Positions 2,075-20,637 of a stretch of 21,103 bases of DNA are shown in pieces. The notes beneath the pieces were generated by a model. It saw nothing but the letters and a program-made list of their open reading frames with translations, ran no database searches and had not been told where the DNA came from. Position 1 is the first letter of the stretch, and the number at the start of each line of letters is the position of its first letter. Source of the stretch: a virus; the IMG/VR virus record IMGVR_UViG_3300032331_000854, positions 1 through 21,103 of that record; one strand, written 5' to 3'. A program made the position numbers and the translations under genes.

Positions 2075-3229
2075 ATGGCAAGCACCTATTCAGCACTGAA
2101 AATAGAACTCATAGCTACAGGCGAACAGTCTGGTACGTGGGGTACAACAACTAATACTAACTTAGGCGATGCGGCTCTTGGCGAAGCTATTACAGGTTCT
2201 GCTGATGTGGCCTTCTCTAGTGCAGACGTTACGGTAACTCTTACGGATACAAACGCTACTCAAGCTGCTAGAAACTTACGACTTAATTTAACAGGTACTT
2301 CAGGTGGAGTTCGTAACCTTGTTTTAGGATCTGGCTGTCAAATTGAAAAATTTTATATAATTAATAATGGTTTAGCAGACGCAGTTACAGTTAAAAATAC
2401 AACAGGCACAGGCGTTACAGTACCAGCAGGCAAAACTATGCCGGTATTTAATAATGGTACTAACGTTGTTGATGTAACTACAGCACTATCCTCTGTTTAT
2501 GTAACAAGCAATATAACTAACGCGGCTTTAACGGCAAGTAAACCTGTATTTACAGACGCATCTAAAAACTTAACGTCTTCAGGTACATTAGCCGTAGATC
2601 AAGGCGGTACAGGTAATACAACTAACGTAGCATATTCAGTAATAGTAGGCGGTACAACAACAGGCGGTGCATATCAATCAGTTGCTTCAGTAGGCACATC
2701 TGGCCAAGTATTAACATCAGGTGGCGCAGGTGCATTACCTACATGGACTACAGTATCATCTAAAGCATTCCCAACAGGTACTCGTATGTCCTTCCAACAA
2801 ACAGCAGCGCCAACAGGTTGGACTAAAGATACAACAGCAGCCATTAATAATAGTGCTTTACGTTTTGTTACAGGCTCAGTAGTTAACGGTGGTACAGTAG
2901 ACTTTACAACAGCTTTTGCATCACAAACCCCAGCGGGTTCAGTATCTATTACAGCTGTGTCAGGTAGTGCAGGTGCAACAACACTTACTACACCACAAAT
3001 ACCAAGTCATACCCACGTTCTTGGTCTTGGCAACTTTCAACCTTATGCATCAGCTCCTGGTCTAGGGGCAAACTCAAATACAAGCTATTCTGCAACTTCA
3101 CAAGCAACAGGTGGTGACGGTTCACACACCCACCCATTTTCATTTAGTTCAGGTTCGGGTACATTTACGGGTACTGCTATTAACTTAGCTGTAAAATATT
3201 ATGACTTTATTATTGCAAGTATTGACTAA
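2075..3229 (+). CDS. Tail fibre protein with collar-type SHTH C-terminus
   Basis: 384 residues. The N-terminus (MASTYSALKIELIATGEQSGT, then WGTTTNTNLG) is the usual start of a class of phage tail fibre proteins that attach to the tail. The middle contains DQGGTGNT (175-182) and a VGTSGQVLTSGGAGALPTW stretch, a pattern widespread in fibre shafts. The C-terminus has FPTGTRMSFQQTAAPTGWTKD and the paired His motifs SHTH (311-314) and HTH (351-353), ending in YYDFIIASID. This resembles phage tail collar/short-tail-fibre receptor-binding tips, where His pairs bind a metal in the trimer. A 47-base gap precedes it, with AAGGA at 2063-2067 seven bases before the ATG. It probably binds the host surface; the receptor cannot be read. 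Confidence 0.8.
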   Translation: MASTYSALKIELIATGEQSGTWGTTTNTNLGDAALGEAITGSADVAFSSADVTVTLTDTNATQAARNLRLNLTGTSGGVRNLVLGSGCQIEKFYIINNGLADAVTVKNTTGTGVTVPAGKTMPVFNNGTNVVDVTTALSSVYVTSNITNAALTASKPVFTDASKNLTSSGTLAVDQGGTGNTTNVAYSVIVGGTTTGGAYQSVASVGTSGQVLTSGGAGALPTWTTVSSKAFPTGTRMSFQQTAAPTGWTKDTTAAINNSALRFVTGSVVNGGTVDFTTAFASQTPAGSVSITAVSGSAGATTLTTPQIPSHTHVLGLGNFQPYASAPGLGANSNTSYSATSQATGGDGSHTHPFSFSSGSGTFTGTAINLAVKYYDFIIASID

Positions 3230-3240
3230 TAGGGGATGTA

Positions 3241-3774
3241 GTGCAATTAACAAATGATTTGCCTATATATAGTTTTATAGTAGATATTAATTATAATAAA
3301 GATAAACTATATGATGAAATTATTAAAGATTCTAAAACTGAAATACCGCAAGTTTATTTAACTATAGGAAACAATTTTAAGTTAGATAAAAAGTATGATT
3401 TTATAAATACTATATATGAAAAGTTTTTGCAAGAAAGTACAAAGTTATTTGGTGAACTAGTTTTAGATCCAACTAATATAAAAGATGGTTGGGCATATAT
3501 AAATAATAAAGACTTTTATAAAAATGGAATACATAATCATTTAAGAACTTCAACGATTAATTCTGTTTATTATTTAAATGTGCCAGATGAAACATCAGGA
3601 AGTATAAATTTTTTTAATGATGACCGCGACATAATATACACACATCATCCAAAAGAAAAAGAGTTAATAATATTTCCTAATTATATGTTGCATGAACCCT
3701 GTCAAAGCATGACGGATGAATATAGAATAGCAGTTAATTTAGAAATAAAGTGTCAAAACATTTGGAGTTTATAA
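3241..3774 (+). CDS. 2OG-Fe(II) oxygenase superfamily protein (variant HxH motif)
   Basis: 177 residues from a GTG start preceded by AGGGGA at 3231-3236. The arrangement W84, GIHNHLRTSTINSVYYL (97-112), GSINFF, LIIFPNYMLHEP (143-153) and R162 in YRIAVNLEI follows putative 2OG-Fe(II) oxygenases of the type HxH...SGVYY...LFPSWLxH...R: first ligand near H98/H100, distal His 151, and an Arg about 11 residues later for 2-oxoglutarate. Such enzymes hydroxylate substrates using O2 and 2-oxoglutarate in the cytoplasm; the target here is unknown. The usual HxD aspartate is absent and His stands there, so activity needs caution. The gene is extremely AT-rich (11 G/C in bases 3241-3300), unlike the fibre gene before it. 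It is the first of four such genes in this region. Confidence 0.72.
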   Translation: MQLTNDLPIYSFIVDINYNKDKLYDEIIKDSKTEIPQVYLTIGNNFKLDKKYDFINTIYEKFLQESTKLFGELVLDPTNIKDGWAYINNKDFYKNGIHNHLRTSTINSVYYLNVPDETSGSINFFNDDRDIIYTHHPKEKELIIFPNYMLHEPCQSMTDEYRIAVNLEIKCQNIWSL

Positions 3775-4107
3775 ATGCAACTAAAAAACGGAACATATTG
3801 CCCATTAATAAAAAAAGACTGTATAGGTTTACAATGTGCTTGGTTTACTAGAGTACAAGGATATGATACTAATACAGGAAATCAAGTAGATGAATATCAA
3901 TGTGCAATAGCTTGGATGCCTATGTTATTAATTGAAAATTCAGGGCAACAAAGATCAACAGGTGCTGCAGTAGAATCTTTTAGAAATGAAATGGTTAAAG
4001 CAAACCAAACTAGCCAACAAATTCTATTACACACGGCTGGAGTGGCTACAGGATTAATAGATGTAAAAGATGACGATCAACCAATATTACCAAAGAACAA
4101 GGAGTAA
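3775..4107 (+). CDS. Conserved four-cysteine phage protein of unknown function
   Basis: 110 residues. Four cysteines lie in the first half: C9, C16, C21 and C43, in the context YCPLIKKDC, then LQCAW, then DEYQCAIAWMP. I recognise this as a small protein frequently found beside tail and oxygenase genes in aquatic phages, with no assigned function that I know. The Cys spacing could bind zinc or an iron-sulfur cluster, or form disulfides; none is proven. The C-terminal half is polar and likely helical (ESFRNEMVKANQTSQQILLH). GGAG at 3764-3767, inside the previous gene's end, gives good spacing, and the start directly abuts the previous stop. Confidence 0.6.
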   Translation: MQLKNGTYCPLIKKDCIGLQCAWFTRVQGYDTNTGNQVDEYQCAIAWMPMLLIENSGQQRSTGAAVESFRNEMVKANQTSQQILLHTAGVATGLIDVKDDDQPILPKNKE

Positions 4108-4110
4108 AAA

Positions 4111-4575
4111 ATGTTATTAACAATTATACCTATAGATGGAAATGTAAAAAAAGATGGGGTAGGATATCTAGGTCTTGACTTATCTTCTTGCGGAATTCCT
4201 TCAAATATAAGGGTTTTACAATGGCAAGAAACATCAGGCTGGATAGAGTTTTGGGACCAAGATAATCAAGATATTACTGTGCTTCCGTCATGGACTGATT
4301 GTTGTTTAACAGCGTGGGATGCAGCAAATCAACCGCCAGCGCCACCAGGCCCTCCAACAGCAGAAGAAAATAAAACTACGGCAGTAAATATACTACAACA
4401 AACTGATTGGACGCAAATTCCAAGCGTTAGTGATCCTGCTTTAAGTAATCCTTATCTTGCAAATAAAAATGCATTTGATCTTTATAGAAACTCTGTTAGA
4501 CAATATGCATTAAATCCAGTAGCTGGAGATATTAACTGGCCTACAGTACCTACAGAAGTTTGGACTAGTGTCTAA
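4111..4575 (+). CDS. Phage tail assembly chaperone-like protein
   Basis: 154 residues. The C-terminal part, from about residue 84 (AEENKTTAVNILQQTDWTQ, then YRNSVRQYALNP, then INWPTVPTEVW), matches the pattern of Phage_tail_APC-type domains: a helix with L-x-x-T/S-D-W, then YR-x-x-(L/V)R, then W-P-x-x-P. The N-terminal part has several Trp and a Cys pair (WTDCCLTAW) and may be a small beta domain. Between them lies a proline run PPAPPGPP (75-82). A strong AAGGAG sits at 4099-4104. Such proteins assist tail or tail-fibre assembly, which fits the fibre gene upstream. The last eight bases overlap the methyltransferase start. Confidence 0.65.
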   Translation: MLLTIIPIDGNVKKDGVGYLGLDLSSCGIPSNIRVLQWQETSGWIEFWDQDNQDITVLPSWTDCCLTAWDAANQPPAPPGPPTAEENKTTAVNILQQTDWTQIPSVSDPALSNPYLANKNAFDLYRNSVRQYALNPVAGDINWPTVPTEVWTSV

Positions 4576-5281
4576 TTTAGATATACTCTATGAATCAGAC
4601 CCTACATTTGGTGGATTATTTAATGAGTGGAGAGTTAAACGAGTAGCAAAGTTAGAACAAGTCTTAGGTAAAGATTGGTTTAAAGACAAAAAAATACTAG
4701 AACTTGGATGTGCCTATGGAAATGTAGGTTTTTATTTTAAAGCATTAGGTGCAGATGTTACGTTTAGCGATGGTAGACAAGAAGTCTTAGATGAAGTTTT
4801 AAGAAAAGACCCTTCAGCAAAAGTTATATTAATTGATGAAGATACCAACTGGAAATTAGATGATAAGTTTGATTTAATAATTCATTTTGGCATTTCATAT
4901 AATATAAATAATTGGAAACAAGATTTAATAAACACAATAAGACACGCTAAATATATTGCTTATGAAACAGCCGTAAATAGATTTAATAACAATATAGAAT
5001 TTAAAATAAAAAACTATAAGTATAGTCATGAGTATCATGGACCGATAAATAATATTGGTAGTTTAATGTCTATTTCAATGATAGAAGATATATTTAATGA
5101 TGAAAAAGTAGAGTATAAAAGATACGACGATGAAGATTTAAATAATCAAGGAATGATATATACTTTTTCTGATAATATAGCCTACACAAAAACTTCAGAT
5201 GAGGACATATACATAGAAGCTTGGCATAATCCTTTTGTATGTGGTGGCAGAAAATATTGGATAATTAAAAATAACTCATGA
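4568..5281 (+). CDS. Class I SAM-dependent methyltransferase
   Basis: 237 residues. Motif I is clear: KILELGCAYGNVGFYF (42-57), with acidic D68 at the end of strand 2 (VTFSDGRQ), and FDLIIHFGISYNI (101-113) as the motif IV region. The fold assignment is therefore firm, but the acceptor is unknown; the family includes small-molecule, glycan and protein methylases. The GTG start overlaps the previous stop by eight bases without a strong Shine-Dalgarno, so translation is probably coupled. The C-terminal 100 residues are unassigned, with many Asn, Asp, Lys and Tyr in keeping with the AT-rich DNA. The next gene overlaps by ATGA. Placement among oxygenases suggests an accessory modification pathway (inference). 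Confidence 0.75.
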   Translation: MSNLDILYESDPTFGGLFNEWRVKRVAKLEQVLGKDWFKDKKILELGCAYGNVGFYFKALGADVTFSDGRQEVLDEVLRKDPSAKVILIDEDTNWKLDDKFDLIIHFGISYNINNWKQDLINTIRHAKYIAYETAVNRFNNNIEFKIKNYKYSHEYHGPINNIGSLMSISMIEDIFNDEKVEYKRYDDEDLNNQGMIYTFSDNIAYTKTSDEDIYIEAWHNPFVCGGRKYWIIKNNS

Positions 5282-5835
5282 GTTTAAAACAAAAACTATT
5301 AGATAATAATTATGTAGTAATAGAAGATTTTATTACCTCTGATAAAGCAGCAGAATTATATAATTATTTTAAAGAGGAAGCATCTAAAAATCCTCAAGCT
5401 TTTGCTTATGATACTCAATGCCCTAAATCTTTAGCTATGTATGACTTTAGATGGTTTTTAGAATTGCTTATAAATAAAATACCATTTATGTCCGAAGTTT
5501 TAGAAGAACCAATGTTTCCTACATATAGTTATGCAAGAATATATGCAAATGGCGAGGTTTTAAAAAAGCATACAGATAGACATGCTTGTGAAATAAGTGT
5601 AACTCTGCACTTAGGAAATGATGGAACTGACTGGCCTATTTATTTTACGAAACCTAATCGCGAAGAAGTTTCTTACAACCTTAAACCAGGGCAAGCTGTA
5701 ATATATTTAGGCATGATTTCTCCACACTGGAGATATGAGTTTAAAGGTCAAGAATATGGACAAGTGTTTTTACATTATGTAAGAGGTCGAGGTGAGAATT
5801 GGGTTTGTTACTTTGATAAGTATAAAAAAGAATAG
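5278..5835 (+). CDS. 2OG-Fe(II) oxygenase (prolyl hydroxylase-like)
   Basis: 185 residues. The metal-binding H98-T-D100 appears in YANGEVLKKHTDRHACEIS, followed by the strand VTLHLG and WPIYF, and distal H150 in LGMISPHWRYEF after PGQAVIY. This is the HxD...H facial triad of 2OG-Fe(II) dioxygenases on a double-stranded beta helix. The 2-oxoglutarate-binding basic residue is less obvious: R152 and K156 lie nearby, and QVFLHYV forms the last strand. The N-terminus (YVVIEDFITSDKAAELYNYF) is the typical opening helix region of prolyl-hydroxylase-like proteins. The start is ATGA-coupled to the methyltransferase. Substrate unknown; protein hydroxylation is possible. Very AT-rich (11 G/C in 5281-5340). 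Confidence 0.78.
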   Translation: MSLKQKLLDNNYVVIEDFITSDKAAELYNYFKEEASKNPQAFAYDTQCPKSLAMYDFRWFLELLINKIPFMSEVLEEPMFPTYSYARIYANGEVLKKHTDRHACEISVTLHLGNDGTDWPIYFTKPNREEVSYNLKPGQAVIYLGMISPHWRYEFKGQEYGQVFLHYVRGRGENWVCYFDKYKKE

Positions 5836-5838
5836 TAT

Positions 5839-6378
5839 ATGATTATAGAGTTACCCAATTATATAGATTTAAACTTAATTGAAGAAATAAAAAAATCAGT
5901 TAAACCTTTTATAAATACTAATGTTCCTACTGAGTATTATAGAGATGGATATACTGTAAATATTACAAATAATGAAAGTCTTAAAGAACTTGATAGTAAA
6001 CTTCATAATTTTTTTAGTTTACTTCATAAAAATATTATAATTCAAAGATACTCTCCTCAAAAACAATCTGCGGATAGCGGATATAAATATCATATTTATA
6101 ATCCAGGAGATATAGCACATCCACATGGTGATGGAGAACTAGACGGTGTTTTTCTTAGATATGCTTCTATTGTATTATGTTTAAATACTCCAAAAGATGG
6201 TGGAGAATTAATATTTCCTAATCAAAATAGAATAATTAAAACTGAAGCAGGGAAAGTAATTATATTTCCTCCGTATGGAATGTATACTCATTATACAACT
6301 CCTTCTACTGATCCAAGAGAAGTTCTTGTATCTTGGTTTATTTACAAAAATATAAGAATACAAGAAAATGAAGACTAA
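5839..6378 (+). CDS. 2OG-Fe(II) oxygenase
   Basis: 179 residues. The triad reads H96-G-D98 within IAHPHGDGE, and H151 in MYTHYTT, with R160 nine residues further on as the likely 2-oxoglutarate carboxylate binder. Between them are IVLCLNTPKDGGELIFP and AGKVIIFPP, the standard GGEL/LFP signature of prolyl 4-hydroxylase-type domains. The N-terminus has a short beta/helix segment (IELPNYIDLNLIEEIKKSV). No signal peptide is present, so the enzyme is cytoplasmic. The ribosome site is weak and the start is four bases after the previous stop, so coupling is likely. It differs clearly in sequence from the other oxygenases here, so it is not a recent tandem copy. Substrate unknown. Confidence 0.8.
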   Translation: MIIELPNYIDLNLIEEIKKSVKPFINTNVPTEYYRDGYTVNITNNESLKELDSKLHNFFSLLHKNIIIQRYSPQKQSADSGYKYHIYNPGDIAHPHGDGELDGVFLRYASIVLCLNTPKDGGELIFPNQNRIIKTEAGKVIIFPPYGMYTHYTTPSTDPREVLVSWFIYKNIRIQENED

Positions 6379-6934
6379 TTTAAGTGATTACATTTACATA
6401 GTTAAAAATGCTTTAAACGCTAAAATATGTGACGATATTCTTAATGAATTTGTAAATAGTAATGAGTGGATAGATACTGTAATTGGCGGCAAAGGCGCCG
6501 TAGAAAAAACTATAAGAAATTGTCAGACTATTGTTATTTCTTATCCGCACGTTATAGAGAAGAATAAAGATACTAGACATAAACTAGATAATGCAATATT
6601 TGACGGTGCCAGTAAATGCATAAAAGAATATAACACTAAATTTCCTCATTGTAACATTGAAGAAGATAGTGGTTATGAATTACTAAAATATTCTGAAGGG
6701 TGCTTTTATATAGAACATACAGATTCTTTTAAGGCAAGACCGCGAGCAGTATCCTGTTCGTTTATATTAAATGATGACTTTGAAGGTGGAGAGTTTGCTT
6801 TCTTTAATAAAGAACTAAAATATAAATTAGAAAAAGGAGATGCTTTATTATTCCCTTCTAATTTTATGTACCCCCATGAAGTAATGCCTGTAACAAAAGG
6901 AACGCGGTATTCAATAATTACTTGGTTTATATAG
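6368..6934 (+). CDS. 2OG-Fe(II) oxygenase, prolyl 4-hydroxylase-like
   Basis: 188 residues. This is the most canonical of the four: YSEGCFYIEHTDSF gives H117-T-D119, EGGEFAFF (139-146) is the GGE/F strand, KGDALLFPSNFMYPHEV gives distal H170, and R180 in GTRYSIITWF lies ten residues later for 2-oxoglutarate. The N-terminal part (YIYIVKNALNAKICDDIL) has the usual opening helix. All residues needed for Fe(II) and 2-oxoglutarate binding are present, so activity is likely, with prolyl or other side-chain hydroxylation as the family's usual chemistry. It overlaps the previous gene by 11 bases in another frame, so the two are probably translated together. The target is not visible. Confidence 0.85.
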   Translation: MKTNLSDYIYIVKNALNAKICDDILNEFVNSNEWIDTVIGGKGAVEKTIRNCQTIVISYPHVIEKNKDTRHKLDNAIFDGASKCIKEYNTKFPHCNIEEDSGYELLKYSEGCFYIEHTDSFKARPRAVSCSFILNDDFEGGEFAFFNKELKYKLEKGDALLFPSNFMYPHEVMPVTKGTRYSIITWFI

Positions 6935-6943
6935 GAGTTTTAA

Positions 6944-7216
6944 ATGAACATGGAAAAAATAACCTCAATGTTGTTCCCAGTCATAGTCTCGGCTATTGCT
7001 TGGTTACTTACTTCAATGACTACTATTCAGGCAGACTTAATTACTATTAAATCTAAAATGCCTAATCTTATTACAGAACAAGGTGTACCTACTGATAGCC
7101 CTATATCAGTTGAAGCTAGAGCAAGACTTAAAGAAGAACTCAAAGGTCAAATAGCAGAACTATCTATTCGTATTAGGTTATTAGAAGAACATGAAAAATC
7201 AAGAGGGTTTAAATAA
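6944..7216 (+). CDS. Small membrane-anchored coiled-coil protein of the lysis cassette
   Basis: 90 residues. One hydrophobic segment near the N-terminus (about 8-24, LFPVIVSAIAWLLTSM) is followed by a polar linker with Pro and Gly, then a charged amphipathic helix (about 55-88, ARARLKEELKGQIAELSI and on) with coiled-coil spacing. AGGAG at 6933-6937 gives an ideal ribosome site for the first ATG; a second ATG is two codons downstream. It is followed by the holin (overlap at TAATG) and endolysin, so it likely belongs to lysis, for example as an inner-membrane spanin-like partner or holin regulator. No outer-membrane lipoprotein partner was found nearby, so the spanin reading is tentative. Confidence 0.6.
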   Translation: MNMEKITSMLFPVIVSAIAWLLTSMTTIQADLITIKSKMPNLITEQGVPTDSPISVEARARLKEELKGQIAELSIRIRLLEEHEKSRGFK

Positions 7217-7701
7217 TGTTTAGCATCCTCTCATCCATACTAGGCTTTGCAACCGCAGGGCTCCCATCTATACTAGGTTTCTTTCAACAAAAGGGAGATC
7301 AAGCGCATGAGCGTGAGATGGCTAGACTACAAAACGAGCAAGCTATGGCTATGGCTCAACAAGGTTTTCAATCTCAAGAAAAAGTAGCAGCAATTAATTT
7401 GGAGGGCACTTATGCAGAAACATTTACACAAGAACGCCAAGCACTTTATGAACACGATGCAAAACTTGTACACGATGCAGCACCCTGGGTTAGAACTCTT
7501 AATGCAAGTGTCCGTCCTATTGTTGCTTTTACTTTTGTAGCACTACTTTTATTTGTAGATATTGGTGGTTTTATTTGGGCAGTTAAAACTGCAGGGTTTA
7601 GCCGCGAGTCTATGGATGTTATATTTTCATCTGATGAAATGGCTATTGTAGGTTCTATTATTGGATTCTACTTTGGTGCTAGGACTTGGGAGAAAAAATA
7701 A
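7216..7701 (+). CDS. Holin, GTA_holin_3TM type
   Basis: 161 residues. Three hydrophobic segments: about 3-22, 100-122 (RPIVAFTFVALLLFVDIG), and 143-156 (AIVGSIIGFYFG). A long charged Gln/Glu/Ala helix (about 28-85) lies between the first and second. The RP-x-x-A-x-x-x-x-x-L-L motif, the closing IIGFYFGAR and the terminal WEKK are characteristic of the three-segment holin family described from gene transfer agents (PF11351). It would make holes in the inner membrane and let the adjacent endolysin reach peptidoglycan; the endolysin lacks a signal, which fits this need. The start overlaps the previous stop (TAATG), with AGAGGG upstream. Confidence 0.8.
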   Translation: MFSILSSILGFATAGLPSILGFFQQKGDQAHEREMARLQNEQAMAMAQQGFQSQEKVAAINLEGTYAETFTQERQALYEHDAKLVHDAAPWVRTLNASVRPIVAFTFVALLLFVDIGGFIWAVKTAGFSRESMDVIFSSDEMAIVGSIIGFYFGARTWEKK

Positions 7702-8151
7702 GTGAATGTATCAAAAGCTGCTATCGCTCTTATCAAACATCACGAGGGTGTGCGTAGTCGTCCCTATCGTTGTCCTGCAAACTTGTGGACTGTTGGTGTG
7801 GGTCACCTTATCGGCGATGGCAAATTGTTGCCTGATTCTTATAACAGAACTTTTACAACGGAAGAAATAGATGCGCTCCTTATACGGGATCTCAATAGAT
7901 TTGAACGTGGAATATCTAAGATGTTACCTAACGTGCCTCTTAGACAATGTGAATTTGATTGCTTGGTATCTTTTGCCTTTAATCTTGGTCTGGGTACATT
8001 TCAAAGATCAACACTCCGTCAAGCGCTGCTTCGCGGAAATAAGACGCAAGCTATGGAATCATTAGTGAAATATTGTCGCGCAGGTGGTAAAATACTCAGA
8101 GGTCTACAAACTCGTAGATTAGACGAAAAAGCACTTTTTGAAGGTAAATAA
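7702..8151 (+). CDS. Endolysin, glycoside hydrolase family 24 lysozyme
   Basis: 149 residues from a GTG start with GGGAG at 7688-7692. The active-site region HHEGVRSRPYRCPANLWTVG has E15, then eight residues, C24, then five residues, T30: the E-8-C/D-5-T triad of phage GH24 lysozymes with cysteine at the second position. Later motifs also fit: CEFDCLVSFAFNLGLGTF and the terminal GLQTRRLDEKALF (Arg-rich helix before the end). It cleaves the MurNAc-GlcNAc bond of peptidoglycan. No N-terminal membrane or SAR segment is present, so export depends on the holin just upstream. The DNA here is much richer in G/C (33 of 60 in 7741-7800) than the oxygenase block, suggesting a different origin. Confidence 0.9.
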   Translation: MNVSKAAIALIKHHEGVRSRPYRCPANLWTVGVGHLIGDGKLLPDSYNRTFTTEEIDALLIRDLNRFERGISKMLPNVPLRQCEFDCLVSFAFNLGLGTFQRSTLRQALLRGNKTQAMESLVKYCRAGGKILRGLQTRRLDEKALFEGK

Positions 8152-10091
8152 TGCCGTTAAGTAAGCTCATATTTAAACCGGGCGTCAATCGAGATCAAAC
8201 TAATTACGCTTCAGAAGGCGGCTGGTATGATACTCAGTGGGTACGATTCCGTTCGGGTTTTCCAGAAAAAATGGGTGGTTGGCAACCTAAAAATTTTACG
8301 GCTTATAACGGTGCTGCTCGAAGTCTTTTTTCTTGGAGTACGACAGATAACAATATCGTATTAGGTATTGGCACAGACACTAAAATGTATGTAAGTGCTG
8401 GTACTAATATATATGATATTACCCCTATACGAGCTACTTTTACTTCCCCTACTACTAATAACTGTATAAGTACGACTAGTGGATCTAAAGTTATCACAGT
8501 AACTATTTCAGGTTATGGAGGCATTACAGGCGACTTTGTAACTTTTAGCGGTATAGTGGGCCCTATTGCAGGTATACCTGCTTCACAATTTAATGCCGAA
8601 CAACAAATAACTTATCTAACCTCAAGTACTTTTACATTTACAGTTGCAACTGCGGCTACAAGTACTACATCAGCACAAGGTGGTACAGCTATCACAGCGG
8701 CGTTTCAAATTAGCGTAGGATATACAACCTCTACGGCGGGTTATGGTTGGGGTACATCTACGTGGAGTCGGGGTACATGGGGTTCTAGTTCTACTAGTGC
8801 TGTGTTCTTCCCTGCCCGATTAATATTCCAAGACAAATTTAATAACGACTTAATCTTTAATATACAAGGTAGTTACATTTATTACTGGGTCTATACAAGT
8901 GCCTTTAGTACCCGTGCTGTATTACTTTCTTCAATCTCAGGCGCTGTCGCTGTACCTCAACAAGTAGGTAAAGTACTATTTGCGCCAAGTGGACATCTAT
9001 TAGCTTTTAGTTGTACTAATTATGATGCTTCTCAACCTGGTCCTGACTACCTAGGAACTTTTGATCCATTACTTATTCGTTGGGCAAACGTAAGTGCTGA
9101 TATAGGACCTGATCCACTTAACTGGCAACCCACTTTAACTAACACCGCAGGCTATTTAAGACTTTCTGTCGGATCTAGAATTGTAACTGCAATAAGAACT
9201 AAACAAGAAATTCTTGTATGGACCGATGTGTCTTTATCATCACTACAATTTTTAGGCACGTCAGAAGTATTTGGTTTACAAGAAGTTTCTTCAGCTACGA
9301 CTATTTTTGGTGCTAACACTGTGATTGGCGCTAATAACGTAGTTTACTGGATGGGCAATGATAAATTTTATACCTACTCAGGTCGCGTAGACACCTTACC
9401 TTGTACACTTCGTCAATACGTATTTAATAATATTAATAGAACACAACAAGGTTTATTCTTTGCAGGCCAAAATGCTGAGTTTAATGAAGTCATCTGGTTC
9501 TACTGCACTCAAAATGCTACTGAAATAGATCGTTACGTTATTTATAACTACGCTGAAAATATTTGGTATTTTGGTGATTTAGAAAGAACTGCGTGGATTG
9601 ATACAGGCGTGATTGATTACCCGGTAGCAGCTAAAGATGGATATGTTTATTATCATGAATATGGTGTTAATGATGGCCAACCCAATAACGCAGCACCATT
9701 ACCTATTCCAGCCTATATACAATCAGCAGACATAGATATTGAAGACGGCGATAAATATTTGCTTATACGTCGTATTATTCCTGACGTTAACTTTAATAAA
9801 TCAGAAACAACTAATCCTGTGACGGGGGCTACGATTGTTCCTCAAGTTACTATGACTGTAGGAGTTAGAAATTTCCCAGGTGCCGCATCGTCGACTACAA
9901 ATGCTGAAGGTCAAACTACAGCAAAAGACATTGTGACATCAACAGCCACCATAGATCAATATACAAACCAAGTATTTATTAGAGCACGTGGTCGTCAGAT
10001 GAATTTTAAAATTAGTTCTAACGATGTAGGTACCCAATGGCAACTTGGTATGCCTCGTGTTGATGCAAGGCCTGATGGACTAAGAAGCTAA
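8151..10091 (+). CDS. Virion structural protein, probable neck/tail hub (P22 gp10-like class)
   Basis: 646 residues. The N-terminus, with LIFKPGVNRDQTNYASEGGW and VRFRSGFPEKMGGWQ, is a familiar beginning of large podovirus structural proteins placed near tail and internal proteins. The body is rich in beta strands, with blade-like segments such as NVVYWMGNDKFYTYSGR and NIWYFGDLERTAWIDTG, suggesting a propeller-type hub like packaged-DNA stabilisation protein gp10 of P22. Residues 98-189 look like an inserted Ig-like domain (NNCISTTSGSKVITVT, then GDFVTFSG). A Trp/Gly segment (GYGWGTSTWSRGTWG, 197-211) follows. The start overlaps the endolysin stop by one base. Virion component is likely; the exact position is inferred. 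Confidence 0.65.
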   Translation: MPLSKLIFKPGVNRDQTNYASEGGWYDTQWVRFRSGFPEKMGGWQPKNFTAYNGAARSLFSWSTTDNNIVLGIGTDTKMYVSAGTNIYDITPIRATFTSPTTNNCISTTSGSKVITVTISGYGGITGDFVTFSGIVGPIAGIPASQFNAEQQITYLTSSTFTFTVATAATSTTSAQGGTAITAAFQISVGYTTSTAGYGWGTSTWSRGTWGSSSTSAVFFPARLIFQDKFNNDLIFNIQGSYIYYWVYTSAFSTRAVLLSSISGAVAVPQQVGKVLFAPSGHLLAFSCTNYDASQPGPDYLGTFDPLLIRWANVSADIGPDPLNWQPTLTNTAGYLRLSVGSRIVTAIRTKQEILVWTDVSLSSLQFLGTSEVFGLQEVSSATTIFGANTVIGANNVVYWMGNDKFYTYSGRVDTLPCTLRQYVFNNINRTQQGLFFAGQNAEFNEVIWFYCTQNATEIDRYVIYNYAENIWYFGDLERTAWIDTGVIDYPVAAKDGYVYYHEYGVNDGQPNNAAPLPIPAYIQSADIDIEDGDKYLLIRRIIPDVNFNKSETTNPVTGATIVPQVTMTVGVRNFPGAASSTTNAEGQTTAKDIVTSTATIDQYTNQVFIRARGRQMNFKISSNDVGTQWQLGMPRVDARPDGLRS

Positions 10092-10093
10092 AA

Positions 10094-10453
10094 ATGGCGT
10101 TACTATTATTTGCCCCGCCGGTACTGCCACTAGCACCAACTGAATATAATGCTGAATATGTTAATCAGTTAATACGGGCACTTAATAATTATTTAAAACA
10201 AGCAGGATCTACAACGCCTATTGTAATAGATCAGTTAACATTATTAGCATTGCCTACAAGCCCAGTAGGTTTAAAACCAGGAACGGTGTGGAATGATGGT
10301 GGGTTTTTAAAGATTGTATTAAGTAACACGATTTTAGTACCAACAGCAACAGGGTTAACATTTACAGGCTACGCTCCTTCGTTAGATATGATAGCACCAC
10401 CTGTGAAAAACCTTGGTTTAATAGGCATAGCGCCTACAATTACAATAACTTAA
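10094..10453 (+). CDS. Small virion-associated protein with C-terminal repeat motif
   Basis: 119 residues. The first half has a helix (EYNAEYVNQLIRALNNYLKQ, 17-36). Then comes LPTSPVGLKPGTVWNDGGFLKI (53-74), a pattern I recognise from small phage virion proteins (S-P-x-G-L-x-P-G-x-x-W-N-D-G-G-x-L-K). The last 40 residues contain two units of the same repeat as the 942-2027 protein (VPTATGLTFTGYAPS and APPVKNLGLIGIAPT). No strong ribosome site is seen; the start lies two bases after the previous stop, so coupling is likely. It might bridge the hub and the repeat protein, which is inference. Confidence 0.55.
   Translation: MALLLFAPPVLPLAPTEYNAEYVNQLIRALNNYLKQAGSTTPIVIDQLTLLALPTSPVGLKPGTVWNDGGFLKIVLSNTILVPTATGLTFTGYAPSLDMIAPPVKNLGLIGIAPTITIT
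10331..10450 (+). repeat. Two further copies of the 22-residue repeat, at the end of a second gene
   Basis: Residues 80-119 of the surrounding gene repeat the P-x-x-G-x-L-x-x-x-G-x-A-P pattern of the 942-2027 protein. At base level, 10427-10438 is identical to 1176-1187 (12 bases). This shows a shared repeat module in two genes 8 kb apart. Confidence 0.6.
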
Positions 10454-15555: not shown

Positions 15556-18500
15556 ATGGCAAAATTTACAGTCTCTACGCCTGACGGGTCAAAGTATGAC
15601 ATTGAAGCCCCTGAAGGCGCAACGCAACAAGATGTTATCCAACAAGTAGCCCAATATCACGAGGCTAATAAAGAATTACCCCGCAACTATACTTTAGGTG
15701 AAACTGTATCTAAAGGCATTACTCGTGGTGCTAAACAAATTGGGTCTGCTTTATTTGATGTTCTTCCTGCTATGGCCGCTAGTGCTGTTGGTGCTAAAGA
15801 CTATGCTGCACGTCAAATGGAAGAAGCACGACAAACTCAAGAAGAAATTAATCAAAAATACGCTCCTGAATTTAAATCATATAAAGATGTACATGGCGTA
15901 GGCCAAGGTCTTAAATTTGGTTTAGAGACTGTATCAGAACAAATTCCTAACATAGCTACTATGTTAATCCCTGGGGGTGTAGGCGGCGCATTAGCTAGAC
16001 GTGGTGTTGTAGCTGGTGCTGAAAAAGCTGCTGCTGCGGCAGGTGCTAGTGAAGCTGAAACATTACTTGCAAGACAAGCTGCGTTACAAACGGCGGCTGC
16101 TAGACAACAAGTAGGTCAAAACGTAGGTATTTATCTTGGCTCCTTTTCTCAAAACGCTCCTGAAGTATTCCAAAACATTTACGACGAAACAGGTAAATTA
16201 GAGCCTGGTGCTGCATTGTTATTTGGATCAGTTAGCGCCGCGTTAGATTCTGCGTTACCTGCGTCTATCATGCGTAAACTTACTGGGCCTGCTAAAATAG
16301 GCTTAGTTGAAAAGGTACTAGAGAAGTCTGGTATGCAACCTGGTTTGCTTCGTAAGATAGCTGCAGCTGCCCCTGAGTCCGTAGCTATGGAAGGTTTAAC
16401 TGAGGGCGCTCAAGAAGCAATTAGCTTAGCCGCTGAGAAATTTGTAGATAAGAACAAACAAATATTTGATTCAAAAGGTTGGAACCGCATAGTAGAATCT
16501 AGTATACGTGGGGCGATTGCTGGTGGCGTATTTGGTACAGCAACTGGTGCAGTCGAAGGACTAACAAAGAAACCTGTTCCCTCTCCTCAATTAGAACAAC
16601 AAGAATTATCAGGTAGAGACCAAGCGCTACAAGGTGCTGCCGTGATTGACCAAGATTTTACTAGCGCACTTGGTGTAGCACCGAACGCTGGGTTCTTAGC
16701 AGGTGTTAAAGGATTAGAAATAAACCAAGAGAATGCTCCTAAGATTAGAGCTGCGTTGATGCAGTATCAAGGTGATGACGCGGTTAAACAAAATATTTTA
16801 AAGGTCTTAGAACGACCTGAACTTAAACTAGGTGCTGATGTCACGGATATTAAGAAAGAGGCAGAAGATGGATCAACTGACACAACAAGAGATAGAGGCG
16901 CTATTCAGGTATCTGGAAAACCCGATGAGTCACGACTTCCCGGAGGAGCTGAAAAAAGTGTCGGAGCTGGAACTATTAGGGATACAACTAATGCTGCAGA
17001 ATCTACTGGAGGAAAAGCGACACAGCCAGATACACTAACGCAAAATATAATTAATGCGTGGCATGGTTTAAGTAGAACTAGCTGGAATGATTTAACTCCA
17101 CAAGACCAAGCCCTTGTTACAGATGCGTACAATAATAAAGCACTTGACGAAGACATCGTTGATGAAATAGATCAAGGTTATAGCGAATACGCTAAACAAG
17201 AAGCTCCTCTTAAAACAGAACATACTACCGAGTCAGTAACAAAAGGGCTCTATAATAAAATAGGTAATAGCATCATCAAAGCTATTAATCGGGGCGAAGT
17301 TAAAATATTAAACGATGTTAAAGAAGCTCCAGAAGGCGTTACTATTCCAGAAGATTCTCCTGCGTTTTATCATAAAGGTATTGCATATCTTGTTGCCAAT
17401 CGTATGGATCCTGATACGGCACACTCATACTTACTACATGAAACTGGATTCCATTATGGGTTAGAAGGCATGCTAGGTAAAAATGCATTCCGTGATATTT
17501 TACGTGGTGTCAACCGTCTTAATAAAATAGATCCATTAGTTACACAGTCTCATGACTTTGTTCAACGTAAATATAAAAATTTAAAAGTAGGTAGTGACCA
17601 ATACTTAAAAGAAGTTGCAGCTAAGTTAGGTGAACTTTCTCCTAATCATAATCTATGGCGCAAGATGGTAGCTGCGGTTAAATCCTTCTTGATTAAAAAA
17701 GGTTTATACAATCCTAATACAATTACTGCACAAGACATACAAGATGTAATCAATCGTTCACTACGTCAATCATTGGCAGGCAAGGTTAAACCAGCTCAAG
17801 TCTCTACTAAAACAGAATTTGCTAAGGCATCACTTGGTGCTGTAGATGAACCTGGTGCTAGAAAGTTAATAGACTCTGTAGGCAAAGTTTATAAATCATT
17901 ACCTGTATATAATTCTCAAATTGGAAAAGAAGTCCAAAATATTTATTCCAAAATGCCAGATCAATTAAGAGCTATTGGTTTATCATTTTTATCCTTACCT
18001 CAAAAGATTGATTTGTATGCAGATAAATTACCGGCGCTTAAGTCATTACTTCAAGCTTTAGAATTACGCGCAAGTGACTCAGATAAGTATCGTCAACAAG
18101 TTGACTTAATAGTTCATGATGGTATTGACCTTCTTAAAAAATATCCTCAAGCAACTATTGAGAAATTTAATAGAGTAGGTACCGCTCTCTCTGCAAGATT
18201 AATTGATCCTAGATTAACTGAAAAACAACAGCAAAATTGGGATCCACAACTTATGGCTGAGTGGAATAGTTTGCCTGCAGAATTAACAAGTAAAGAAATT
18301 ATTGGCAATAAAACTGTAAAAAGATTTATCAATGGCGTAGACACAGATGTAAAAGTGCCTATCTATAGAGGCCTAGCATATAACATAGCTACTCAGTACG
18401 AACAGTATCGCCTAGATATGATTGCCCGTATTGAACAACTATCCCCTGATTTTGCAAAAAAATTAAGAGATCGTTTTGAAAAAGAAAGAATTTCATTCTA

Positions 18501-20637
18501 CTTGCCATTAAGACGTAAAGGTATTTATCGTTTGTCTTATAACGACGGATCAGAACGAGTTGTTAGACATTTTGAATCCCCTGCAGAATTAGAAAGAGCT
18601 AAACAACAAATTGAATCTAAAGGTGCTACTGACGTATCTAGCAGCATACTTACTAGGGAAATTAATTATAAAGACACACCTCCATTAGGTTTCGTTAAAG
18701 AGATTATTGATGTTCTTGATAAACAAATTATAGTAGCTGAAAATGATGTAGAAGCTAAAGCTCATAAAGAATCACTAATTAACGAAGTTTATAGAACATA
18801 TTTAGATTTATTTCCAGACGAATCCATACGCCAACAAATGAGAGAACGTACTGGTGTGGCTGGATATATAGAAGATATTGTAGGCGGCTTCGCTGATACT
18901 GGAGCTAAATTAGCTAATCAATTATCTAATCTTGAACATCGTCCTAAAATTGATGCTGCATTCAAAGATTTAAAAGACCAAGAAAAAGAATACATTAATG
19001 GTAACCCTTTAAAAAATATAGCCCCTCATACTGATTTAGGTGAGAACGCTGCAATCACTCAAGTGGTGCAAGACTTAATTAATCAAAAGAAATTCTTAGA
19101 CAACCCTGTAGCTAATAGCTTATCTGCTCGATTAAGCTGGGTAAGTTATATTTGGAATATTGCAGGTAATATATCTTCGGCACTTGTTAACTTAACTCAA
19201 GTTCCTATGGTTGTATTCCCTATGTTAAGCGGTGAATATAGTTGGAGTGAAGCTTATAGTGCCATGCAAAATGCTTATAGCATGTATTTTAAAGGCGGAT
19301 TATTCAACGATAATAATAGAAGATTCTTACCTGACCATACGTTTGGGGCTAATTTAAAAAAGGGCGATAAATACTACGACTTATATCAAGCGGCTATTAA
19401 TCGTACGGCTATACGTCGTGGTGTTGGATATGAATTAACTGAATTAAGAAATAGATCTGCTGAAGACTTTACTGGGGTTAGATCTAAAATCGAAACAGGT
19501 TTAGGATGGATGTTCCAAAACTCTGAACGCATGAATAGAGAAGTTACTCTTATTGCTGCATATGATCTTGCTATAAAACGAGGATTAAGTTCTGAAGCTG
19601 CAATTAACAAAGCTATTGACCTTACTGTACGAGCTCACTCTCATGCATTATCTGAAGCTGGTCCTAAAATGTTCCAAGATGGATTCGGTAAAGTAGCGTT
19701 CACATTTAAACGTTTTGCCCAAACACAGATTTATAATACGGCACGTTTATTTCACTTAGCATTTAAAGATGCTGACTTAGAAACTAGACAAGTAGCACGT
19801 AAACAATTACTTGGTATTATGGGTATGACTTACATGTTCTCTGGTTTACAAGGCCTTCCACTTTACGGCGCATTAAATATGTTATCGACTGCAATAGCAG
19901 CTATGTTTGGGGATGACGAACCTTACGACTTTGATGAAGAAGTACGAGAAATATTTGGAGACCTTGGATACAAAGGTGTTCTTAATAAAGCATTAAATGT
20001 AGACATCGCCTCAAGAACTGGCTTTAATGGTATGGTATGGAGAGACGATCCTAGACGATTATCTGAAGTTGGTTTCTCATCATACTTTGCTGAACACTTC
20101 TTTGGCCCTGCTTATCAAGCGCTACTTGTTAATCCTGAACGTGCAGGTAAACTATTTAGTGAGGGTCAAACAGAAAGAGCTATTGAAGCAATTATGCCGT
20201 CATTTATTAGGAACGGGATGAAAGGTATTAGATATGCTACTGAAGGTGCCATGACTACTAATGGCGTCAAAGTAATTGATGACCCTAATGTTTATAATAA
20301 CTTTATGCAAATTTGGGGATTCACTAACGCGGACTTAGCAGAAGCTTATGCTCGTGCGGGTGCTATGAAAAAAGGTGAGAAGAAATTACATGATATGAAA
20401 GCTGGTTTATTAGATACTTACTATTTAGCTAAATCTAGTGGGGACACAAGTGGCGCTCAAGACATTAAAAAGAAAATAAATGACTTTAACAAAATTGTAC
20501 CTGCTGGTTTTAGAATTACTGGAGACAGTCTAGCTAGATCTGCAAGAGGCCATGAGTCACGCAATAGAAAAACTATTGATGGTGTTTACATAGATAAGAA
20601 ACTAAAGAACTATATACAAAAAGAATTAGGGGCTTAG
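15556..20637 (+). CDS. Giant internal virion / ejection protein with zincin-like and LPD38-like segments
   Basis: 1693 residues, the largest and last gene of the late operon. Residues 1-40 (FTVSTPDGSKYDIEAPEGAT) form a small N-terminal domain shared by many phage virion proteins. A hydrophobic segment follows at 130-146. Residues 437-500 are a polar disordered linker. At 626-635 LLHETGFHYG carries the HExxxH motif seen in zincin-like domains of large polyvalent phage proteins (H628, E629, H633). Around 1190-1230 LSWVSYIWNIAGNISSALVN and NLTQVPMVVFPML resemble large polyvalent domain 38. A second hydrophobic stretch covers about 1424-1453. It likely travels with the DNA into the cell envelope, like T7 gp16, but no transglycosylase motif was seen. 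The start (TAACATG) lacks a Shine-Dalgarno, so coupling is probable. Confidence 0.7.
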   Translation: MAKFTVSTPDGSKYDIEAPEGATQQDVIQQVAQYHEANKELPRNYTLGETVSKGITRGAKQIGSALFDVLPAMAASAVGAKDYAARQMEEARQTQEEINQKYAPEFKSYKDVHGVGQGLKFGLETVSEQIPNIATMLIPGGVGGALARRGVVAGAEKAAAAAGASEAETLLARQAALQTAAARQQVGQNVGIYLGSFSQNAPEVFQNIYDETGKLEPGAALLFGSVSAALDSALPASIMRKLTGPAKIGLVEKVLEKSGMQPGLLRKIAAAAPESVAMEGLTEGAQEAISLAAEKFVDKNKQIFDSKGWNRIVESSIRGAIAGGVFGTATGAVEGLTKKPVPSPQLEQQELSGRDQALQGAAVIDQDFTSALGVAPNAGFLAGVKGLEINQENAPKIRAALMQYQGDDAVKQNILKVLERPELKLGADVTDIKKEAEDGSTDTTRDRGAIQVSGKPDESRLPGGAEKSVGAGTIRDTTNAAESTGGKATQPDTLTQNIINAWHGLSRTSWNDLTPQDQALVTDAYNNKALDEDIVDEIDQGYSEYAKQEAPLKTEHTTESVTKGLYNKIGNSIIKAINRGEVKILNDVKEAPEGVTIPEDSPAFYHKGIAYLVANRMDPDTAHSYLLHETGFHYGLEGMLGKNAFRDILRGVNRLNKIDPLVTQSHDFVQRKYKNLKVGSDQYLKEVAAKLGELSPNHNLWRKMVAAVKSFLIKKGLYNPNTITAQDIQDVINRSLRQSLAGKVKPAQVSTKTEFAKASLGAVDEPGARKLIDSVGKVYKSLPVYNSQIGKEVQNIYSKMPDQLRAIGLSFLSLPQKIDLYADKLPALKSLLQALELRASDSDKYRQQVDLIVHDGIDLLKKYPQATIEKFNRVGTALSARLIDPRLTEKQQQNWDPQLMAEWNSLPAELTSKEIIGNKTVKRFINGVDTDVKVPIYRGLAYNIATQYEQYRLDMIARIEQLSPDFAKKLRDRFEKERISFYLPLRRKGIYRLSYNDGSERVVRHFESPAELERAKQQIESKGATDVSSSILTREINYKDTPPLGFVKEIIDVLDKQIIVAENDVEAKAHKESLINEVYRTYLDLFPDESIRQQMRERTGVAGYIEDIVGGFADTGAKLANQLSNLEHRPKIDAAFKDLKDQEKEYINGNPLKNIAPHTDLGENAAITQVVQDLINQKKFLDNPVANSLSARLSWVSYIWNIAGNISSALVNLTQVPMVVFPMLSGEYSWSEAYSAMQNAYSMYFKGGLFNDNNRRFLPDHTFGANLKKGDKYYDLYQAAINRTAIRRGVGYELTELRNRSAEDFTGVRSKIETGLGWMFQNSERMNREVTLIAAYDLAIKRGLSSEAAINKAIDLTVRAHSHALSEAGPKMFQDGFGKVAFTFKRFAQTQIYNTARLFHLAFKDADLETRQVARKQLLGIMGMTYMFSGLQGLPLYGALNMLSTAIAAMFGDDEPYDFDEEVREIFGDLGYKGVLNKALNVDIASRTGFNGMVWRDDPRRLSEVGFSSYFAEHFFGPAYQALLVNPERAGKLFSEGQTERAIEAIMPSFIRNGMKGIRYATEGAMTTNGVKVIDDPNVYNNFMQIWGFTNADLAEAYARAGAMKKGEKKLHDMKAGLLDTYYLAKSSGDTSGAQDIKKKINDFNKIVPAGFRITGDSLARSARGHESRNRKTIDGVYIDKKLKNYIQKELGA
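16868..17038 (+). CDS. Candidate overprinted small gene inside the giant ejection protein
   Basis: A 56-codon frame, +1 relative to the host gene, starts at ATG 16868 with GAGG at 16858-16861 six bases upstream and ends with TAA at 17036. The product (MDQLTQQEIEALFRYLENP, then ELKKVSELELLGIQLMLQNL, then LEEKRHSQIH) is charged and amphipathic, like a compact two- or three-helix protein. The host frame here encodes only a low-complexity polar linker. The DNA is locally G/C-rich (32 of 60 in 16921-16980, against 23 of 60 in 19501-19560). GTG 16832 and ATG 16838 are alternative longer starts. No family is recognised. It could instead be a relic of a frameshifted ancestral segment, or chance. Confidence 0.33.
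   Translation: MDQLTQQEIEALFRYLENPMSHDFPEELKKVSELELLGIQLMLQNLLEEKRHSQIH

Follow-up and report, generated by a model that had tools for sequence, protein, structure and literature searches.

What do four oxygenase genes and a methyltransferase gene do behind the tail fibre gene of a water-borne bacterial virus? The question is posed by IMG/VR virus record IMGVR_UViG_3300032331_000854, positions 1 to 21,103 (the whole stretch of 21,103 nucleotides analysed here, called the window), in which a fibre gene is followed by four 2-oxoglutarate (2OG)-Fe(II)-oxygenase-type genes (OX1–OX4) and one methyltransferase gene (MT). Two of these, OX2 and OX4, form a conserved pair encoded with a fibre-assembly unit, the genes h3775 and tfa, and the others come and go around it. 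We tentatively read the region as a fibre-linked protein-hydroxylation cassette, whose core pair would then probably decorate the fibre. The genes concerned are, in order:

2075–3229, plus strand: tail fibre of 384 amino acids (PHROG 31104), with an N-terminal domain common to many phages and a variable C-terminal tip.
3241–3774, plus strand: OX1, accessory 2OG-Fe(II) oxygenase of the PF13759 type (Pfam match; H98-x-H100...H151...R162), in the slot between fibre and h3775.
3775–4107, plus strand: h3775, conserved protein of 110 amino acids with invariant C9, C16, C21 and C43, the best linkage marker of the module.
4111–4575, plus strand: tfa, tail-fibre-assembly/chaperone-like (weak match to PHROG 4912, E 0.004), adjoining h3775 in 80/80 loci.
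4568–5281, plus strand: MT, accessory class I S-adenosylmethionine (SAM) methyltransferase, found between tfa and OX2 or OX4 (3/80 loci).
5278–5835, plus strand: OX2, core of the pair, double-stranded β-helix (DSBH) with a prolyl-4-hydroxylase-like fold (AlphaFold2 model), labelled 'ferrochelatase' in PHROGs and RefSeq.
5839–6378, plus strand: OX3, accessory PF13640 2OG oxygenase and distant paralogue of OX4 (Pfam, profile comparison).
6368–6934, plus strand: OX4, core of the pair, PF13640 2OG oxygenase with the canonical H117-x-D119...H170...R180.

The first-pass annotation had described four 2OG-Fe(II) oxygenases and a class I methyltransferase packed between tail and lysis genes, and this description holds: ORF calling in the window places the five open reading frames as listed, and families, fold and triads are confirmed. 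All lie on one strand in a tight run from the fibre to the lysis genes (7216–8151), with gaps of 11 nucleotides (nt) between fibre and OX1, 0 between OX1 and h3775 and 3 nt each between h3775 and tfa and between OX2 and OX3, and with overlaps of 8 nt (tfa/MT), 4 nt (MT/OX2) and 11 nt (OX3/OX4). Inside the run there is no excess of promoters or terminators over shuffled sequence, an Rfam search gave no match and PADLOC gave generic matches only (2OG, methyltransferase). Megablast found no closely similar phage isolate.

The DSBH of the 2OG-Fe(II) oxygenase superfamily is assigned to OX1, OX3 and OX4 by Pfam profiles only, to OX1 by PF13759 (33.4 bits), to OX3 and OX4 by PF13640 (28.6 and 63.9 bits), the cut-off being 27 in each case. 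The facial triad H-x-D/E...H is conserved in OX2 (98/100/150), OX3 (96/98/151) and OX4 (117/119/170), and an arginine stands about ten residues past the distal histidine in OX1 (R162), OX3 (R160) and OX4 (R180). Among relatives of OX4, H117 and D119 are kept in 57/57, H170 in 56/57 and R180 in 55/57; all four OX3 residues are kept in 10/10 and those of OX1, where H-x-H replaces H-x-D, in 3/3. The four had been said to share little sequence and not to be tandem copies, which stands for OX1 and OX2 (no detectable relation to the other oxygenases of the window) and has to be amended for OX3 and OX4, distant paralogues with 29% identity and a profile E of about 1e-14. MT is a class I SAM methyltransferase by motif I (ILELGCAYG) and by profile, the match to PF13489 lying exactly at the cut-off of 27 bits. 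The genes are under purifying selection, with median ratios of non-synonymous to synonymous substitution (dN/dS) of 0.14–0.28, those for OX1 and MT resting on two usable comparisons each. OX1–OX4 are predicted to catalyse reactions that depend on 2OG, Fe(II) and O2.

OX2 has no meaningful Pfam match, and a sequence search for solved structures returned chance ferritin matches only. The DSBH, put forward earlier as the feature to look for in structure models, is present in its AlphaFold2 model (pLDDT 88.4, pTM 0.86), which matches PHD2 and EctD and, best of all PDB entries, the prolyl-4-hydroxylase (P4H) of Pseudomonas putida [PDB: 4j25, 4iw3; Foldseek E 1.8e-10, template-modelling (TM) score 0.73–0.75 over the P4H chains]. 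At E ≤ 0.001 there are 762 matches in PDB, and all 50 of those listed are 2OG-type enzymes. H98 and D100 are found in 59/59 relatives and H150 in 57/59. OX2 differs from the P. putida enzyme (identity about 14%) in having neither Arg nor Lys at the canonical place ten residues past the distal histidine; the position is Y160, and R152, H166 and Q162 are conserved instead. Because the 2OG-binding residue is not at its usual place, the enzymatic class of OX2 rests on fold and metal triad.

The P. putida P4H is a protein hydroxylase and was crystallised with EF-Tu. Being the nearest fold to OX2, it counts in favour of fibre hydroxylation; it is also an argument for host take-over, in which the oxygenases would alter a protein of the host, for example EF-Tu, or change 2OG levels. 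The latter idea is the published one for cyanophages, whose 2OG genes have been read in terms of 2OG/nitrogen effects and DNA repair (Sullivan et al., 2010, PMC3037559) or of host reprogramming (PMC9602691). We regard take-over as improbable here: the top Foldseek matches of OX2 have only 8–16% identity, several different families are a poor means of merely consuming 2OG, and the linkage to h3775 and tfa is left unexplained.

That linkage emerged from a census blind to the oxygenases, in which IMG/VR was searched with h3775, at least 561 stretches were confirmed and the best 80 were examined (L numbers denote individual contigs); this sample holds some near-duplicate contigs, its distinct h3775 sequences numbering about 50, and taking the best 80 favours close relatives. 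The order fibre, h3775, tfa, OX2, OX4 is conserved across related contigs. OX2 and OX4 both lie downstream in 66 of the 74 informative loci (80 minus 6 that end too soon), the remaining 8 lacking one or both, and in L096, a contig from a metagenome-assembled genome (MAG), an OX2/OX4 fusion follows h3775. In the marker itself, four cysteines are invariant and a central and C-terminal stretch is strongly conserved across podovirus-like phages, cyanomyoviruses and one Roseobacter phage; it belongs to no known family, and its AlphaFold2 model is poor (pLDDT 61, pTM 0.30) and was not used.

Around the pair, OX1, OX3 and MT are variable in presence and fixed in their slots, where some eight further oxygenase families and a cupin also occur. 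A cupin-like gene occurs at 35 of the 80 loci, OXH at 12, OX3 and OXA at 11 each, OXG at 6, an OX1-like gene at 5, and MT, OXB and OXC at 3 each. OXH has no Pfam match and shows the H-x-D...H...R pattern in 9/9. The cupin call is a weak one, based on a sub-threshold PF07883 match and on conserved histidines. Cupin presence follows the OX2 tree, requiring 7 changes where shuffles need about 19; near-copies inflate this signal, so no cupin–OX2 partnership is claimed. Between OX2 and OX4 of L027 there is a carbamoyltransferase. In L092 and L093 (MAG contigs named Polynucleobacter and Bacteroidetes) the stretch after tfa has, instead of OX2-OX4, a PF13759 oxygenase together with a fatty-acid desaturase and two genes that are hydroxylase-like. 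Of the 66 pair-holding loci, 15 carry four or five 2OG-type genes, and comparable clusters occur in isolated cyanophages and pelagiphages (PMC9602691); four in under 4 kb, first noted as dense, is thus not exceptional for the group.

Such exchange would be expected of a positional cargo slot, in which small accessory genes, each useful in its own right, gather past tfa without sharing a pathway. The accessory families do indeed replace one another irrespective of the fibre tip, and unrelated genes (e.g. DUF6817, GDSL, DUF6445) also occur in the slot. The OX2-OX4 pair is near-invariant and elsewhere fused, however, the slot genes are mostly of oxygenase or cupin families and dN/dS is low, and a cargo slot appears to us an unlikely account. 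The suggestion that all the enzymes act in one pathway therefore keeps its core and loses its rim: the pairing of OX2 with OX4, their fusion in several phages and a tight same-strand run with modification enzymes fit joint action, whereas OX1, OX3 and MT occur in few relatives, in slots that other families fill, and show no fibre-tip correlation. These genes come and go, as one would expect of unconnected enzymes, but at fixed rather than unrelated positions.

Do the oxygenases simply follow fibres? A control search with the fibre N-terminal domain gave 44 fibre copies for which 2.5 kb or more of downstream sequence is visible. Any OX profile matched next to 6/6 copies with h3775 and 3/38 without, so the oxygenases follow h3775-tfa and not fibres generally. 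The 38 include second fibres of phages that bear the module elsewhere, and the OX4 profile of this control included a fusion of 397 amino acids, a bias that could only raise the count in the group without h3775. Since samples and criteria differ between census and control (pair versus any OX), a Fisher test between them serves as description only.

Dense 2OG clusters are already known in phages; S-SCSM1, a T4-like cyanophage isolate (Kyanoviridae), has 24 such genes, and the main text on its virion proteome names three non-structural proteins, no 2OG oxygenase among them (PMC9602691). Its order is OXC/OX1-like, OXH-like, one unassigned gene, an OX1-like oxygenase, two fibres, h3775, a tfa-like gene, an OX2-OX4 fusion and OXA, so that the stretch from fibre to OX2/OX4 and OXA is colinear with the module described here. 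In P-SSM2 fibre, h3775 and tfa are followed by a PF13640 oxygenase, and in S-PM2 the short tail fibre is followed by an OXA-like gene, a tfa-like chaperone and more oxygenases, with OX2 about 6 kb on. The clusters of S-SCSM1, S-PM2 and S-SM1 resemble the window in families and dense runs; they differ in that they were published as host-metabolism genes (PMC9602691; Sullivan et al., 2010, PMC3037559), that OX2 and OX4 are fused and that they do not always lie at fibres. The window genome is smaller and podovirus-like, and its OX2 and OX4 are separate genes.

The order in S-SCSM2R is OXA-like, h3775, tfa-like, OX2-OX4 fusion and then annotated glycosyltransferases, including family 25. These would also suit modification of lipid A or polysaccharide in the host envelope, or of their precursors, which might exclude competitors or stop progeny sticking to debris, fibre adjacency arising because both concern the receptor. 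The fast turnover of the rim within a near-identical backbone fits this as well, and the slot of L092 and L093 holds, beside the desaturase, a protein weakly like aspartyl/asparaginyl hydroxylases, the family that includes the lipid A hydroxylase LpxO. However, the core pair of the podovirus-like contigs shows no linkage to genes for lipids or sugars, and its position suggests late expression, when a change of envelope is less useful; we think the envelope an unlikely target. DNA or nucleoside modification, the least supported of the substrates first listed, has a parallel in phage TET plus carbamoyltransferase systems, which modify DNA. The slot holds a carbamoyltransferase in one case, OX2 adjoins a DNA methyltransferase in Syn30, and related oxygenases bear 'DNA endonuclease' labels in PHROGs. 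We consider it very improbable, given the position among virion and lysis genes and the lack of any Tet/JBP or AlkB-type (PF13532) match above cut-off; against PF12851 (Tet_JBP), OX1–OX4 gave no match and one fusion homologue a weak sub-threshold one.

In PHROGs, OX2 matches 2954 and the N-terminal half of 3531, both named 'ferrochelatase', and OX4 matches the C-terminal half of 3531, which is therefore the fused OX2-OX4 family. The name is found on OX2-family proteins and OX2-OX4 fusions of cyano- and pelagiphages in both PHROGs and RefSeq (YP_195269.1 and others), and on L103:8001–8609. We reject it for OX2: neither OX2 nor its 'ferrochelatase' homologues of S-PM2, S-SM1, ACG-2014f, HTVC033P and HTVC008M match the ferrochelatase family (PF00762), and the model fold is a DSBH. 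H-x-D-R, HWR and FLHY-type positions are carried by the homologues of S-PM2 (T4-GC 615), S-SM1, Syn30, HTVC033P and HTVC008M. In pelagiphages, 'ferrochelatase' was reported always to adjoin a 2OG-Fe(II) oxygenase and was read as haem/iron metabolism (Wittmers et al., 2022, PMC9599517). The 'ferrochelatases' of HTVC033P and HTVC008M are OX2 homologues; their neighbour is not clearly OX4, and OX2 is itself oxygenase-like. Genes labelled 'DNA endonuclease V' or denV (PHROG 274; L106:2619–3107, L103:3807–4316) match our oxygenase profiles OXD and OXG, and the S-SM1 gene of that name has no Pfam match at all; judging from these comparisons, the PHROG 274 label is probably a second mislabel.

How, then, might a fibre-linked hydroxylation cassette work? 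Fibre or adhesin chains would be made and folded with tfa (the homologue in Roseobacter phage CRP-361 is annotated 'tail assembly chaperone'), and OX2 and OX4, small oxygenases without obvious export signals, would act on them as a pair, hydroxylating side chains with O2, Fe(II) and 2OG. The variable rim would add further oxygenases, a cupin or enzymes able to act on the new hydroxyl; MT may methylate the hydroxylated product. The surface or stability of the fibre, and with it receptor binding, would be altered. MT, the L027 carbamoyltransferase and the S-SCSM2R glycosyltransferases, each in few genomes, would in chemical terms suit the capping of newly made hydroxyls, and the first two are predicted to bring two hydroxyl-capping-type chemistries into the slot. 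A precedent is the prolyl 4-hydroxylase of PBCV-1, likewise virus-encoded and proposed to modify viral proteins (Eriksson et al., 1999, as cited in PMC9301287); as presented there it belongs to an algal virus and collagen-like substrates are discussed, and the window module has no collagen repeats.

Several observations weigh against the fibre as substrate. The 2OG-binding residue of OX2 is non-canonical, as described above. No run of six or more G-X-Y was found in 109 fibres, and a collagen-type fibre hydroxylation system is rejected. Accessory set and fibre-tip identity are uncorrelated (rho about 0, 43 loci), so coupling of the accessory enzymes to the tip is rejected too; nearly all genes have correlated distance matrices, as shared descent predicts, OX2 being the most independent. 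L021 is 90–100% identical to the window at nt level in the flanks (1–1000 and 6750–10250) and 95–99% in the N-terminal part of the fibre, against 77% in the last ~200 nt of the fibre, 71–81% in tfa and 60–76% in MT; it lacks OX1, OX2 and OX3 despite 91% fibre protein identity, and these three are therefore dispensable for such a fibre. The comparison also speaks for the cassette, in that tip, tfa and MT diverge and the three oxygenases are gone inside a backbone preserved on either side. The unit h3775-tfa occurs without the pair in L030, L032, L041 and L075, and CRP-361 has fibre, h3775 and tfa with no oxygenase. Conversely, OX2 (with or without OX4) lies between terminase and portal in L014, L016 and L017, by DNA-replication genes in Syn30 and by NAD synthetase in ACG-2014f. 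The open-access literature searched held no modified phage fibre residue and nothing directly relevant on fibre hydroxylation.

Elsewhere in the window, 1–471 is the C-terminal end of a methyltransferase + MptE-like (PF01973) fusion, whole in L001:264–1691. The gene at 942–2027 near the fibre (361 amino acids) diverges strongly among near-identical phages (76% versus L021, 44% versus L002). At 15556–20637 a protein of 1693 amino acids matches PHROG 10089 'DarB-like antirestriction' in its C-terminal part.

The module is real and its density ordinary for the group; the conserved pair and its linkage merit direct test. No earlier statement of the pair, of its linkage or of the 'ferrochelatase' correction was found in the open-access literature searched. 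That correction is warranted, the label in PHROGs and RefSeq having already found its way into a published reading in terms of iron metabolism. Among the unexplained 'auxiliary metabolic genes' of aquatic phages, 2OG oxygenases rank with the commonest; host metabolism is the usual account, and a pair tied to one fibre-assembly unit in podovirus-like phages and some T4-like cyanophages offers a specific, testable alternative for which cultured phages exist. At its widest, and this we hold to be rather unlikely, there may be a widespread phage system that hydroxylates receptor-binding fibres, some further methylated, carbamoylated or glycosylated, in which the OX2-OX4 pair with its exchangeable tailoring enzymes would form a chemical layer of host-range variation.

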